This document shows positions 1 through 5,239 of a stretch of DNA of 36,110 nucleotides, piece after piece. The notes beneath the pieces are model-generated. The model was not told where the DNA came from. It worked only from the letters and a program-made list of their open reading frames with translations, and did no database searches. Each line of letters begins with the position of its first letter. Positions within the stretch are counted from its first letter, which is position 1. Source of the DNA: an uncultured Hyphomicrobiales bacterium (GTDB taxonomy: Bacteria > Pseudomonadota > Alphaproteobacteria > Rhizobiales > TMED25); the NCBI GenBank assembly GCA_905181735.1, contig CAJIYR010000013.1, forward strand, positions 1 to 36,110, read 5' to 3'. The translations under genes were made by a program, and so were the position numbers.

Positions 1-5
1 TTTCA

Positions 6-53
6 CCAGTAAATATAGACAGTTATAATAATTGTGATAACATTCTCATTATG
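6..53 (+). repeat. Leader repeat, copy 1 (promoter/5' region of first paralog)
   Basis: This 48-base stretch, ending with the ATG of the gene at 51, recurs at 758-805 before the next gene; by hand count 44 of 48 positions match. It contains a perfect TATAAT at 24-29, with TTTCAC at 1-6 placed 17 bases upstream, so it may be a sigma-70-type promoter with a 5' leader of about 15 bases. No Shine-Dalgarno sequence is visible before the ATG in either copy. A more diverged version precedes the third gene near 2030-2067. The repeat is directly visible; the promoter role is inference. Confidence 0.65.
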
Positions 54-752
54 GGAAAACTATTAGCTATCATCACGCTCATTCTACCACTACTACTATC
101 ACAGAATAGTTGGGCTTCGAGTTTGCCTGAGTGTCAGGGGAGTCCTCTAAATGAGTCAAATTGGCAAGAATCGTCCGAGTGGAATAACTGCCAAGGAGCT
201 GTCACATTCTTTGAAGGTCTATCAGAAGAAGGAGAATGGATTTACGGTAAATTAAAATGGCAATCTGAGTATAATCGTAACGAACATTTAAGTGGAATTT
301 GGGAGATAAAAACGAATTCAATAAATGAAAAAATCTATTTTTACGATCAATGGATTGGTTTTTTAAACTCAGATCTTGTTTGTCAAATTTTATTTACAGA
401 AAAACCTTTTATAAGAAATAAAAATGCCAAAGACTATGGAGTAAAGAACCTTACATTCATAGTTTTGGGAACTAATTGTAAAACTCACAAGTTCCAAGAA
501 GAATTCCAAACAAGCTTTGATAATGTATTTATCGCAAATGAAGGTGAGTTAGTTTTATTTCAAACTAAAATTTTAAAAGAAAATGAGGAAACTGGTTATT
601 TAAACAGAACTTTTCCTAATGGAGCATTGTATAACAGTTTTGAAAAAAAGGATGTCGGGTTTTTAATGCTAAAACGAATTACAAAAAATATATCAAAAGA
701 AGATTTCCTCTCTAAATTTAAACATAAGTTTAAGAGCTTCACATCCAACTAA
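51..752 (+). CDS. Exported protein of unknown function, tandem paralog 1
   Basis: The 233-residue protein starts with a lipid-free signal peptide: a basic start, a leucine/isoleucine-rich core at about 4-17, and cleavage probably after the SWAS region near residue 23. It should be exported to the periplasm or beyond. The first ~35 residues closely match those of the next gene (both have LAIITLILPLL, then SLPEC and GSP, then a WxNCQG motif at 44-49). The rest lacks the MORN/YwqK repeats of its two neighbours and I do not recognise it. It may be a family member that lost or never gained the repeats. There is no Shine-Dalgarno before the ATG; the start is supported by the conserved leader. Confidence 0.75.
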   Translation: MGKLLAIITLILPLLLSQNSWASSLPECQGSPLNESNWQESSEWNNCQGAVTFFEGLSEEGEWIYGKLKWQSEYNRNEHLSGIWEIKTNSINEKIYFYDQWIGFLNSDLVCQILFTEKPFIRNKNAKDYGVKNLTFIVLGTNCKTHKFQEEFQTSFDNVFIANEGELVLFQTKILKENEETGYLNRTFPNGALYNSFEKKDVGFLMLKRITKNISKEDFLSKFKHKFKSFTSN

Positions 753-757
753 ACGCT

Positions 758-805
758 CCAGTAAATATAGACAGCTAGAATAATTATGGTAACATTCTCA
801 TTATG
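758..805 (+). repeat. Leader repeat, copy 2
   Basis: This is the second copy of the 48-base leader found at 6-53, differing at four positions by hand count. It begins five bases after the stop codon of the preceding gene and ends with the ATG at 803. The TATAAT of copy 1 reads TAGAAT here (776-781). Similarity continues into the signal-peptide codons, so the duplicated unit is promoter, leader and signal peptide together. Confidence 0.65.
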
Positions 806-1996
806 AAAAAACTATTAGCTATCATCACACTCATTTTACCACTTCTAATCTCTAGTGAGAGTTGGGGTTCAAGTTTGCCTGAGTGCGAAGGAAGTCCGTC
901 AGATAAGTCAAATATTCTAGTAACTTTCATTTGGGATAATTGTCAAGGAACAGCTGTATTCGAAAACAAAGAAAAATACGTCGGTGAATATAAAGACGGA
1001 AGATTTCATGGTCAAGGAACTTATGCATTCTCGGACGGTGAGGAATACGCGGGTGAATATAAAGAGGGCAATAGGCATGGCAAAGGAACGTACATATTCT
1101 TATCTGGTCAAATATATACAGGTGAATGGAAAGAGGGTTTAAGCCATGGTCAAGGAATTGATACCTGGCCAGATGGAAGAAAATACGTCGGTGAATATGT
1201 AAATAACTCATACCATGGTCAAGGAACATACACATATGTAGATGGTAGAAAAGATGAAGGTGTATGGGTGAACGGTCATTTTCTTTACGGAAAAATCACG
1301 CCAAAAAACAAGGATGAAGAGCTTTGTCTAGAGGTTCATGGTTTAATATACGATTCCTCTGAATTTGATAAATGCATTCAAGGGAGTTCTGAGGCATATA
1401 GTAATAAACATGTCAGTAAATATAAAAAAAATAGAGAGGAAATTTATACTTCTGATTTAGTGTACCGGGATAAACTTTACTATGAAAGCTCCTCCGATAT
1501 TCCCTTTACAGGCAAAACAATTGGACAGATTCAACGTTTGTATAAAGATGGTAAGATGCATGGTGAATCGCTTGAGTATCATGAAAATGAAAAGTTGGCT
1601 TCCAAACGTAACTATGTAGACGGCAAAGAACAAGGTGAGGCGGTTTGGTACTATGACAACGGAAAATTGGAAGCCAAATATAACTATTTAAACGGCAAAA
1701 AGCATGGTGAGGCGGTTTGGTACTATAATAACGAAAAGTTGATGTCTAAACGGAAATATATGAAGGGGAAAATATACGGAGAATCGCTTGCATATCATGA
1801 TAATGGACAATTAAAATCTAAACGTAAATATGTAAATGAGAAAGAACATGGAGAATCTCTTGCGTATCATGACAATGGACAATTAAAATCTAAACATAAA
1901 TATGTAAACGGAAAAAAGCATGGTAAATCGCTTACTTATAATGAGAATGGAGAGCTAGAGAGTAATGTTAATTATGAATGGTGGGGAATAAAATAG
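803..1996 (+). CDS. Exported MORN-repeat / YwqK-repeat protein, tandem paralog 2
   Basis: The 397-residue protein has a signal peptide (core 4-17, cleavage near 22-24), then two repeat regions. Residues about 59-155 hold four to five MORN repeats of about 23 residues (YxGEYKxGxxHGxGTY pattern). Residues about 247-390 hold six or seven repeats of the type annotated as YwqK family (HGExxxYxxNGxLxSKxxYxxGK). Between them lies a non-repetitive linker with the phrase IPFTGKTIG, which recurs in the next gene. MORN and YwqK repeats are beta-hairpin repeats linked to surfaces and protein binding; the antitoxin label often attached to YwqK is not supported here because no toxin gene is adjacent. The role is unknown. 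Confidence 0.8.
   Translation: MKKLLAIITLILPLLISSESWGSSLPECEGSPSDKSNILVTFIWDNCQGTAVFENKEKYVGEYKDGRFHGQGTYAFSDGEEYAGEYKEGNRHGKGTYIFLSGQIYTGEWKEGLSHGQGIDTWPDGRKYVGEYVNNSYHGQGTYTYVDGRKDEGVWVNGHFLYGKITPKNKDEELCLEVHGLIYDSSEFDKCIQGSSEAYSNKHVSKYKKNREEIYTSDLVYRDKLYYESSSDIPFTGKTIGQIQRLYKDGKMHGESLEYHENEKLASKRNYVDGKEQGEAVWYYDNGKLEAKYNYLNGKKHGEAVWYYNNEKLMSKRKYMKGKIYGESLAYHDNGQLKSKRKYVNEKEHGESLAYHDNGQLKSKHKYVNGKKHGKSLTYNENGELESNVNYEWWGIK
1778..1921 (+). repeat. Two tandem 72-bp units inside the repeat protein
   Basis: Units 1778-1849 and 1850-1921 each encode 24 residues of the YwqK-type repeat. By hand count 63 of 72 bases match, which is closer than the other repeats in the gene. This points to a recent in-frame duplication and a region prone to gain or loss of units. 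Confidence 0.7.
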
Positions 1997-2064
1997 ACAA
2001 AATACATTAGATTATTAGCCTATTATAACAATAGACAGGCAATGTAATTATGGTAATATTTAAT

Positions 2065-3198
2065 ATGAAAAGAATACTATTCATCGTTGCGCTCATTCTA
2101 CCAGTCATACTTTCACAGCACAGTTGGGCTAGTTTGTTTGATGAACTGGAATACCGTGATGAACTTAGCTATGAATATAGTTGGATTTATAATCACGATC
2201 TATTGATAGAACGCGATGGACTTGTTTACGTGCCTTTGGCCGATGTTCCTTTTACAGGAAAAACCACAGGGAAAATACAGACTTCGTATAAAGACGGTAA
2301 GTTACACGGTGAATATCTTAATTACTACGATAATGGACAGTTATACAAAGTAGCCAGCTATGTGAATGGCAAGGAACACGGTGAATATCTTAGTTACTAC
2401 GATAATGGACAGCTATGGTACAAAACCAATTATTTAAATGGTAAGCGAGAGGGAGAAACTGTTACTTACGGAGAAATTGGTGAGTTATTGGGCAGAGAAA
2501 ACTTTGTAGATGGCAAGAGGTATGGTGAACGTCTTACCTACTATAAGGGTTATTTAAATGAACGATTAAAATACAAAAGTAACTGGGTGAATGGTAAGGG
2601 GCACGGTGAATTTTTTTCTTACAGAGGCAATGGAGAGTTAGAGTCTAAATCTAACTATTTAAACGATAAATTACACGGTGAACTGATTAATTACGATGAG
2701 AATGGAAAAGTATGGGAGACAAATACCTATGTGAATGGTGTGTTAAAATCTAGTATATCGATTTGTAATGATAGCTTAAGCCAAGAAACCTACCTGAGAA
2801 TATATGATGAAATGGGTCTAGATGTGAATCTTGACCGCTACGAGCTAACTCAGGTTAATAGCAATATTTGTCACTTTAAACTTTACCTATCGACTCATCG
2901 TAGAAATTATATCTATAAAATAAAAGAAGATAAATTGGTTAACTTAACAGACGGTGATTTGCTATTTGAATATCGTCGCGATAAGGGTATTACGGTGAAA
3001 GTTAAGGGTCAGAAATCCTACCTTAACGATTTAGGTGGAGCAATCTGGTATAATTCTGAAAGAGATCTCGAAGGTAAATTGCTTGCATTGTTAGATATAG
3101 AGGAAGGCACATGGATCTCAAAAGATCAATTTGACGATGAATTTCAAGCGCAATTAACGGCCCAAGGACAAGACGGACTCGTTGTCTTTCAAAAATAA
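2065..3198 (+). CDS. Exported YwqK-repeat protein, tandem paralog 3
   Basis: I chose the ATG at 2065 rather than the in-frame ATG at 2050, because 2065 aligns with the starts of the two upstream paralogs (MKRILFIVALILP against MKKLLAIITLILP). This gives 377 residues. The signal peptide ends near SWAS (~23). Then comes the PFTGKTTG phrase shared with paralog 2, and about seven YwqK-type repeats (HGEYLxYYDNGQL, YxNGK). The C-terminal ~130 residues are non-repetitive and unrecognised, ending in GLVVFQK, which resembles GELVLFQTK in paralog 1. A terminator-like hairpin overlaps its stop codon, so the three-gene set probably ends here. Function unknown; presumably periplasmic or surface-exposed. 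Confidence 0.75.
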   Translation: MKRILFIVALILPVILSQHSWASLFDELEYRDELSYEYSWIYNHDLLIERDGLVYVPLADVPFTGKTTGKIQTSYKDGKLHGEYLNYYDNGQLYKVASYVNGKEHGEYLSYYDNGQLWYKTNYLNGKREGETVTYGEIGELLGRENFVDGKRYGERLTYYKGYLNERLKYKSNWVNGKGHGEFFSYRGNGELESKSNYLNDKLHGELINYDENGKVWETNTYVNGVLKSSISICNDSLSQETYLRIYDEMGLDVNLDRYELTQVNSNICHFKLYLSTHRRNYIYKIKEDKLVNLTDGDLLFEYRRDKGITVKVKGQKSYLNDLGGAIWYNSERDLEGKLLALLDIEEGTWISKDQFDDEFQAQLTAQGQDGLVVFQK

Positions 3199-3222
3199 GC
3201 CAACGAACAGCTTATGTTTTTT
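3195..3222 (+). terminator. Rho-independent terminator after the three-paralog cluster
   Basis: Arms ATAAGC (3195-3200) and GCTTAT (3210-3215) flank a nine-base loop and are followed by G and six T. The stem overlaps the TAA stop of the upstream gene. The stem is short but the T run is clear. Confidence 0.55.
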
Positions 3223-3244
3223 ACAAAAATACGCATAAAAATAT

Positions 3245-3313
3245 GACTTGTCACGCCAGAGGTCTTGGGTTTGAGTCTCGTCATTCCCGCCACTTAAAAA
3301 GTTGTAGATTCCT
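3245..3313 (+). pseudogene. Truncated tRNA-Asp 3' end, fragment A (att-like scar)
   Basis: The sequence resembles the 3' part of an alphaproteobacterial tRNA-Asp: TGTCACGCC (GTC anticodon region) at 3249-3257, the variable region GAGGTC, a decayed T arm (loop TTTGAGT), the acceptor strand CATTCCC, discriminator G and encoded CCA (3290-3292). No matching 5' half (a GGGAATG start) lies upstream. About 20 bases of downstream flank (CTTAAAAAGT...GATTCCT) are shared with fragment B at 4008-4072. Mutations in the T stem make it non-functional. Such 3' tRNA copies are typical products of integrase-mediated insertion at a tRNA gene; no integrase is visible here. Confidence 0.7.
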
Positions 3314-3473
3314 AGATTCCAATAGTAAAATTCTTAACCTTACCTAAGAAGAGGTAATAGCAAGGAAGTTATAGATAAAATTTCTATGTTTGATTGTCAT
3401 GTTGATGTAATCTTTAAATACACATAAAAATATAAATAATAATTATTTAATTAATGATTTAATGGAGAATATT

Positions 3474-3917
3474 ATGAACAAAACAAACAAGATGCTGATC
3501 ATTCCGGAGCCGGTACCTGCAAATGGTAATTATGCTCCGTTTCACATAGAAGGCAATTTAATTTATGTCTCTGGCCAATTGCCAATTAAAGATGGAAAGC
3601 TTGTAAAATCAGCGGGTAATAATAGTTTCTTAGATGTTGCATCTCTCCAAATGGAGCTAGTGACCTTAAATATCTTATCGCATGTTATGTCCGCTGTGAA
3701 TAATGATCAGAGCAAGATAGAGTCTTGTGTAAAATTAACTGCCTATTTGGTGCCTCCAGACGATTTTTTTGAACACGCACTTATCTCAAATATTGCATCA
3801 GATATGATAAACGATTTCCTTAAACCGATAAAAAATCATACTAGAACAACTATTGGTATAAAAAGTCTACCACTTGGATCGTTGGTTGAGGCCGATGCAA
3901 TATTCAAAATTACTTGA
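3474..3917 (+). CDS. RidA/YjgF/YER057c (Rid) family protein
   Basis: The 147-residue protein has the Rid-family layout: an N-terminal APFHIEGNLIYVSGQLP stretch (about 21-37), then R124 and E139 at positions matching the conserved arginine and glutamate of RidA (LPLGSLVEADAIF at the C-terminus). RidA hydrolyses reactive enamine/imine intermediates from PLP enzymes, but other Rid subfamilies have different or unknown roles, so the substrate is not assigned. The ATG at 3474 was chosen over the in-frame ATG at 3462 because GGAG at 3464-3467 is a well-spaced ribosome binding site for it. The gene stands alone between two truncated tRNA-Asp ends, so it may be cargo of an integrated element. Confidence 0.85.
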   Translation: MNKTNKMLIIPEPVPANGNYAPFHIEGNLIYVSGQLPIKDGKLVKSAGNNSFLDVASLQMELVTLNILSHVMSAVNNDQSKIESCVKLTAYLVPPDDFFEHALISNIASDMINDFLKPIKNHTRTTIGIKSLPLGSLVEADAIFKIT

Positions 3918-4007
3918 TCAACTGCTAGTAATATAAATAGTTTTTACCTTTATGATAATCGATGGATTATATTTATTATGTTTTTTAAAAAAAGAACATA
4001 AGACACA

Positions 4008-4072
4008 GGCCTGTCCGGAGGTCGCGGGTTCGAGTCCCGTCATTCCCGCCACTTAAAAAGTGATAGATTCCT
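4008..4072 (+). pseudogene. Truncated tRNA-Asp 3' end, fragment B (att-like scar)
   Basis: GGCCTGTC (anticodon arm, with about four bases missing after it) is followed by GGAGGTC, an intact T arm (GCGGG, loop TTCGAGT, CCCGT), CATTCCC, G and CCA ending at 4051. The downstream flank CTTAAAAAGT...GATTCCT matches fragment A. The T arm is better preserved than in fragment A, suggesting a younger duplication. The D arm and 5' acceptor strand are absent, so this is not a functional tRNA gene. Confidence 0.75.
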
Positions 4073-4099
4073 CTCATAATTCAACCTTGATTTAGTTTT

Positions 4100-5239
4100 T
4101 CAAACCTTATAATTATAAAGCCAATCGTATTTCGATAAGTGAAAATCTCCCGATAAATTTTTTAGATACATATTTCTTATATGCTCTAACACACCATTAA
4201 GGTGAAAGATTTCCCCGTTCATGTTTGCGTTTCTAATCACTTTATTCACTCTAGAAAATCTTTTTTTATAGTACTCCTGATGCATTTCTTCTGTTGTTCT
4301 TTTTGATGCAAGTATTTCTGCTAAAACATACCCATCCTCTAGGGCCATTCCGGCACCTTGCGCTAAATGCGGTGGCATAGGATGAGCAGAATCTCCAATT
4401 GAAAAAATAGGTAAGTTGAAATTATTTTTTTGAATTGTGCAACTCTCGTTTAAAGACCATGATTCCCATTTAATGGATGAAATTAGCTCATTAATTTTTT
4501 TAGAAATATTTCCAGGAAGGTTTTCCCCATCTATAGTTTTATTAACCTTATTGTAGTATTTCTCTTTGGCTATTAGAACAAAATTGAAGACATTAACATC
4601 AATAGGATAGACCACTAAGTGCATTGTATCTCCAAGCCAAACGTTCACTTTATTCATTTCTAAATTTAAAGGAATCTCGTTTTTATTTAACGTTGCTCTA
4701 AAGGCTCTAAATTTTAATTTTTTTCTGAGAATTTTTTGTGTGGCAGGATATAGACTCTCTGAATTTATTCCGCTGGATAAAATAACTGTATTTGTATGGT
4801 GGGTGGTATTTTTATTGATAGAGATACTTGTGTTTTCTTCTGTAACGCAAGTTGACGTTATCTCAGAATTATAGTTAATAACTGTCTTGTTTTCTTCGGC
4901 TAAATTTCTCAGAGATTCGTGTAAGGTATTCCTGTTTATCGTGTAGTAATCAGAATGATACCGCTCTCTTGCAAATTTTCCAATTGGTAGGCATGTTAAT
5001 GTTTTTTCATCTCTGGCTGAGATTAACTCTATCGTTTCTATCTTATGCATTTGAGGGATTATTTTTTCTAAAACCCCTAATTTTCTTAGTATGTTTGAAG
5101 CATTTGGTGAGATTTGAATTCCATAAGCTTTTGGTGAATTTTTTGAATATTTATCAAAAATCTCATGGTCAATGTTTTTTTCTGTCAGTGAAATACTGCA
5201 ACTAAGACCAGCAATCCCTGCTCCAATAATACTATGCAT
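4100..5239 (-). CDS. FAD-dependent monooxygenase (class A, UbiH/salicylate hydroxylase-like)
   Basis: The 379-residue protein has the N-terminal dinucleotide-binding motif GAGIAG (6-11) and the second FAD motif IGDSAHPMPPHLAQGAGMALEDG (281-303), which binds the ribityl/phosphate part of FAD. The family hydroxylates aromatic or related substrates using NAD(P)H and O2. The middle DG motif (usually ADGxxS) reads SSGINS (155-160), so its aspartate is missing. It lies 18 bases downstream of the zf-CHCC gene on the same strand; this pairing recurs in alphaproteobacteria. Possible substrates range from a ubiquinone precursor to salicylate-like aromatics; none can be singled out. The start has no clear Shine-Dalgarno. 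Confidence 0.85.
   Translation of the reverse strand: MHSIIGAGIAGLSCSISLTEKNIDHEIFDKYSKNSPKAYGIQISPNASNILRKLGVLEKIIPQMHKIETIELISARDEKTLTCLPIGKFARERYHSDYYTINRNTLHESLRNLAEENKTVINYNSEITSTCVTEENTSISINKNTTHHTNTVILSSGINSESLYPATQKILRKKLKFRAFRATLNKNEIPLNLEMNKVNVWLGDTMHLVVYPIDVNVFNFVLIAKEKYYNKVNKTIDGENLPGNISKKINELISSIKWESWSLNESCTIQKNNFNLPIFSIGDSAHPMPPHLAQGAGMALEDGYVLAEILASKRTTEEMHQEYYKKRFSRVNKVIRNANMNGEIFHLNGVLEHIRNMYLKNLSGDFHLSKYDWLYNYKV

Follow-up and report, generated by a model that had tools for sequence, protein, structure and literature searches.

Truncated tRNA-Asp 3' ends around a RidA gene in an OCS116 bacterium as probable remnants of phage attachment sites

The integrases of temperate phages that use tRNA genes recombine within a core extending from the anticodon arm to the 3' end of the gene. 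The closest described case to the locus presented here is the additive flexible genomic island fGI-2 of Candidatus Methylopumilus, in which tRNA-Lys 3' ends recur and the variable content ranges from 330 bp to 42 kb with 1 to 63 CDS (PMC10872708).

The window, that is the whole stretch of DNA that was analysed, is the entire contig C13 (36,110 bp) of a genome of 1.39 Mb in 13 contigs (G000), and it was compared with a congeneric genome (G001) and with twelve others of the same family, taken from genome searches.

Two truncated tRNA-Asp ends in the same orientation

A first-pass annotation had described two tRNA-Asp 3' ends in the same orientation and devoid of 5' halves on either side of a RidA-family gene, and alignment confirmed both; they are named here A and B, and both are cut at the anticodon arm. 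The features of the segment 1-5239 are the following:

14..83 (+), leader module copy 1 (promoter/leader and start of exported gene 1); 6-95 is 90% identical to 758-847, and the contig start adjoins
51..752 (+), exported protein gene 1; open reading frame with no Pfam match
803..1996 (+), exported MORN-repeat protein gene 2; Pfam MORN and MORN_2
2050..3198 (+), exported MORN_2-repeat protein gene 3; Pfam MORN_2
3211..3241 (+), putative left arm of site A (P-arm-like), CTTATGTTTTTTACAAAAATACGCATAAAAA; 26/31 against the phage arm
3245..3303 (+), core of site A, tRNA-Asp 3' half and CACTTAAAAAGT; alignment, 8 G/C-to-A/T changes
3304..3313 (+), downstream flank TAGATTCCT, common to B and not to the intact gene; alignment
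3379..3973 (+), RidA segment; 95% identical to G001 C6:12909-12315 (tRNA-Asp island), the homology ending at the start of the B unit
3462..3917 (+), RidA/YjgF-family gene, 151 aa; Pfam PF01042, E 4.9e-10
3976..4001 (+), putative left arm of site B, TTATGTTTTTTAAAAAAAGAACATAA; alignment to A's arm, weaker to the phage arm
4008..4062 (+), core of site B, tRNA-Asp 3' half and CACTTAAAAAGTG, with a 4-bp deletion; alignment and DNA search
4063..4091 (+), junction between site B and the conserved chromosome; homology with G001 C56 begins at 4092
4092..5239 (-), right chromosomal neighbour, FAD monooxygenase gene (4100-5239); directly after tRNA-Leu(TAA) in relatives

The core of A (+ strand) is identical in alignment to the 3' half of the intact tRNA-Asp and its CACTTAAAAAGTG flank at 51 of 59 positions, every one of the 8 differences being a G/C-to-A/T change, while the core of B (+ strand) has 0 substitutions and its sole change is the deletion, located in the anticodon loop region. 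In the DNA search B matched the intact gene with E 2.4e-19 and A matched B with 5e-15, so the likeness is not due to chance. It had been claimed to cover the core and a downstream flank, which is correct but incomplete; in fact, A and B also resemble each other for about 30 bp upstream of the core (TTATGTTTTTTA...CATAA), a stretch that the intact tRNA-Asp lacks, and their common downstream flank stops at TAGATTCCT (3313 and 4072) and is absent behind the intact gene. The stronger decay of A is likewise borne out, but it does not establish the ages deduced from it (A older, the RidA segment younger), since either the donor or the recipient can supply the DNA 3' of the crossover in a tandem array.

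The proposed tRNA and covariance-model searches gave no tRNA with ARAGORN over the window and sub-threshold matches only in the Rfam scan of the window for partial tRNAs; the genome-wide Rfam search returned full-length tRNA matches only, with A and B not among them. The sole intact tRNA-Asp(GTC) of the genome lies on contig C5, beside hupB, after hupB and tRNA-Val. Thus A and B form a direct repeat of a truncated tRNA 3' end, as in remnants of tRNA-targeted integrative elements. A third ectopic fragment of the core is found at G000 C6:6408-6448, near tRNA-Ala(GGC), followed by the downstream flank of the intact gene, which is the phage right arm described below; it is kept in the congener at G001 C23:91-131.

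Position of the block and distribution of its cargo

In eight relatives (G001 and seven genomes of a sister genus) the gene order is cinA-gpt-tRNA-Leu(TAA)-FAD monooxygenase with nothing inserted, and at least 4.09 kb is inserted in G000 between the position of tRNA-Leu(TAA) and the FAD monooxygenase gene. The segment 1-4072, for which a presence/absence comparison had been suggested, is therefore absent from this place in 8 of the 8 relatives examined. Contig C9 ends within cinA, and the G000 assembly contains neither gpt nor tRNA-Leu(TAA), so the left edge of the block is hidden in an assembly gap. C13 is colinear with 155-184 kb of contig C1 of G002, where the genes of C9 are next in line; by gene order, the genes of C10 and C5 stand side by side around tRNA-Asp/TVP38, and one gene of the left end of C5 maps past the right end of C13 (45% identity). 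The contigs are likely arranged as C9-C13-C5-C10, the C13-C5 join being the weakest, and B would accordingly have tRNA-Asp roughly 150 kb to its right; no overlaps were found between the contig ends in question, and a join from C5 to C13 was rejected on gene order. An intact tRNA-Asp had been expected just beyond the left edge of the window, a prediction that fails, as the only copy is on C5 and synteny puts cinA-gpt-tRNA-Leu(TAA) (C9) on that side; the intact cognate tRNA that an in-place island, and not a moved remnant, needs at its other end was thus not found. Next to the hidden insertion point, G000 C9:1-400 is 100% identical to G001 C56, the rest being 89-98% identical, and is possibly a recent recombination tract.

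RidA belongs to the tRNA-Asp island in the congener, about 1 kb downstream of tRNA-Asp, but is near tRNA-Leu in G000; in G001 the DNA search detected it without flanking tRNA-Asp cores. Close relatives of this gene are in marine alphaproteobacteria of OCS116/Rhodobiaceae. The RidA of the sister-genus genome G004 is 93% identical, far above the neighbouring proteins (37-74%), which points to horizontal transfer; that gene (L062:7392-7820) is located near tRNA-Asn and tRNA-Cys. The description of RidA as mobile cargo is therefore supported independently by the match in the G001 island (95%) and by that in G004, its attribution to a younger segment is not. A 41-bp relic of the 3' part of RidA, at G001 C6:11821-11781 between a small gene and yaaA, is a second RidA trace in the island. 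The stretch G001 C6:12283-12252, considered as a left-arm relic after RidA, resembles A's arm and not the phage arm and was left out.

The leader module, a repeat of 60-90 bp comprising a promoter and the start of a signal peptide, has three copies in the window (14-83, 752-835 and 2031-2103) and others at G000 C5:115113-115192 and 116761-116820 and at G001 C6:13385-13468; outside the window, strong copies are confined to the tRNA-Asp islands of these two genomes. It precedes unrelated genes, namely the MORN genes, a nuclease-like gene, a sulfatase and yaaA. In the genus the region between tRNA-Asp and TVP38 measures about 11 kb and is absent in the sister genus. Since genes and leader modules match the tRNA-Asp island and the block is now downstream of tRNA-Leu(TAA), the block was probably moved. 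A weaker copy of the module is present on G000 C6 (L005:3808-3871), and another variable stretch lies beyond TVP38 (G000 C10:86251-88474, L100), with a nuclease-like gene and a 357-aa ORF that are not at this place in G001.

A phage with the same attachment site and the origin of the block

Viral contigs were scanned for the tRNA-Asp 3' end and its flank, and a single one was recovered, IMGVR_UViG_3300028829_005403 (24.7 kb), which carries in this order the left arm CTTATGTTTCTTAGGAAACAACGCATAAAAA, the exact 59-bp core, the right arm and the gene of a 464-aa tyrosine integrase (Phage_integrase). It also encodes repressors and replication genes, then terminase, portal, scaffold and head/capsid genes, which identify it as a temperate phage. 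No other phage with the same attachment site was found, its integrase had no match among annotated phages, and no relative of RidA, of the MORN genes or of the leader module was found in viral contigs. Over the first 14 kb of this contig, the octamer CGCATAAA occurs 6 times on one strand and 0 times on the other, with 3 of the 6 copies around the core, and might be a candidate arm site of the integrase.

The left arm of A is identical to that of the phage at 26 of 31 positions, the best background value being 20 of 31 among about 224,000 31-mers. The left arm of B resembles that of A to a degree attained by 7 of 11,554 AT-rich background segments, A's own included, and its match to the phage arm is weak (56 of 11,554 score as high). 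The phage right arm, in turn, matches the flank of the intact tRNA-Asp in both G000 and G001 over about 90 to 130 bp past the core, and is absent from the sister-genus genomes, which have other flanks behind tRNA-Asp. The core is thus accompanied by an arm shared with the attP of an element, clearly in A and more weakly in B; because a viral contig joins an A-like left arm to the tRNA-Asp core, fragment A appears to be a phage attachment-site remnant (left arm and core) and B, less certainly, the same. An intact tRNA-Asp followed by the phage right arm, with left arm and core at the far ends, is the expected product of integrase action.

These data separate two parts of the first-pass claim that the fragments are the footprint of site-specific integration at tRNA-Asp. 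The marks of a tRNA-Asp-specific tyrosine-integrase system are supported, given the viral contig with the same arm and core by its integrase gene and the absence of the segment from this place in the eight relatives; integration in place is not supported. A tRNA-Asp far away or with another flank had been regarded as evidence against the claim, and both were found, the flank differing beyond CACTTAAAAAGTG; the distance does count against integration in place, but the flank is no objection to integration, being the very phage arm that should be left there. As to the integrase, for which a search near the locus had been proposed, none of an element remains there, in or near the block, as would be needed for an active element and not for a remnant. 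The tyrosine recombinase genes of G000 are two PF00589 genes only, on C3 and C7, of XerC/XerD size, and in the 14 genomes of the family no relative of the phage integrase was detected beyond a short weak match to a gene of XerC/D size.

The two fragments are probably decayed attachment sites of an array of tRNA-Asp-specific phages or satellites, whose cargo is now at an ectopic site. A tyrosine integrase of such elements would recombine within the tRNA-Asp gene, in a core that reaches from the anticodon arm to slightly beyond the 3' end; the phage core would restore the tRNA upon integration, the phage right arm would be left behind the intact gene, and left arm and core would mark the far end of each integrated element. 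Successive integrations would generate an array of units each ending in left arm and core, and 1-4072 would be the end of at least two tandem units, one with the exported MORN genes up to A and the other, with RidA, from A to B. Part of the array would then have been excised and re-inserted beside tRNA-Leu(TAA), as a circle or by recombination; this last step, whose left junction is missing, could be either integrase-driven at a secondary site or due to recombination. Successively, the integrase would have been lost, and the attachment sites would be decaying.

Insertion of the elements directly at a tRNA-Asp just left of the window, the version first proposed, is improbable. The intact tRNA-Asp is followed by the right arm and the window holds left arm and core with matching orientation, as expected for the two ends of such an island, but that tRNA is on C5 beside hupB, the right end of C5 pairs with C10 (TVP38) by gene order, the left end of C13 pairs with C9 (cinA), and relatives have tRNA-Leu(TAA) here. 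The block could also have left a tRNA-Asp island by ordinary homologous or illegitimate recombination, with the attachment scars as passengers and no integrase at the new site, an account that is possible though rather doubtful and that, as regards the last step, is a sub-version of the phage or satellite array. The leader modules and RidA common to tRNA-Asp islands and the loss of any integrase agree with it; however, two units of arm and core bound one gene and the RidA homology ends where the B unit starts, which is the pattern of tandem site-specific integration.

An assembly chimera, in which DNA of the tRNA-Asp island was fused to the contig of the FAD monooxygenase, deserves even less credit than insertion in place: the core is repeated within the genome and a different repeat stands at the contig start, but B and the intact gene have no unbroken common stretch longer than about 50 bp, and what borders that stretch on either side comes from neither the tRNA-Asp locus nor another place found. 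That A and B are degenerate duplicates of tRNA-Asp generated with no mobile element is the least credible of all. Several genomes of the order do match the tRNA-Asp 3' half at two or three places (DNA search), but both copies are cut at the anticodon arm and A runs on into the phage left arm and not into tRNA 5' sequence; gene duplication without an element was rejected on this arm.

Beyond the array itself, a rather unlikely extension is that the RidA unit (763 bp, A to B) acts as a minimal mobile cassette of one metabolic gene and an attachment site, which the integrase of a tRNA-Asp-specific OCS116 phage moves in trans and which is able to settle at ectopic sites beside other tRNA genes. 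If true, it would show how genomes devoid of element integrases of their own still swap single metabolic genes.

Comparison with described systems

Through this locus, a variable island in OCS116, a marine lineage that is uncultured and streamlined, is linked to one particular temperate phage whose attachment site is readable; the locus provides a likely host link for IMGVR_UViG_3300028829_005403 and a sequence tag for finding its satellites. Five papers found to mention both OCS116 and phage do so only in passing, judging by titles and term counts. In fGI-2, as here, a streamlined aquatic bacterium has an island of variable content that is marked by recurring tRNA 3' ends; here, in contrast, the repeat is of about 100 bp with a recognisable phage arm, derives from tRNA-Asp and is placed beside another tRNA gene. 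Tycheposons of Prochlorococcus (PMC10872708) and marine phage satellites (PMC11389934) are alike in cargo, tRNA genes, tyrosine recombinases and marine bacterial hosts, but no integrase or other element gene is present here and the units measure about 0.76 kb and at least 3.2 kb; in particular, the block does not show the combination of an own tyrosine recombinase next to a tRNA and a cargo of 4-200 kb. Integron cassettes and CALIN (PMC11389934) share the arrangement of one gene followed by a repeated recombination site, with the integrase absent, whereas the repeat described here is best accounted for as a tRNA-Asp attachment site and not an attC, and the likely cognate integrase is of the phage type, encoded beside the same attachment site. 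Lastly, in the attachment of temperate phages at tRNA genes the core also extends from the anticodon arm to the 3' end, the tRNA is restored by the phage copy and a truncated copy is left at the far side; the truncated copies here, however, are not downstream of the matching tRNA. The feature is therefore of an already known kind, to which the matched phage attachment site and the ectopic position are added, in the almost unstudied host clade OCS116.
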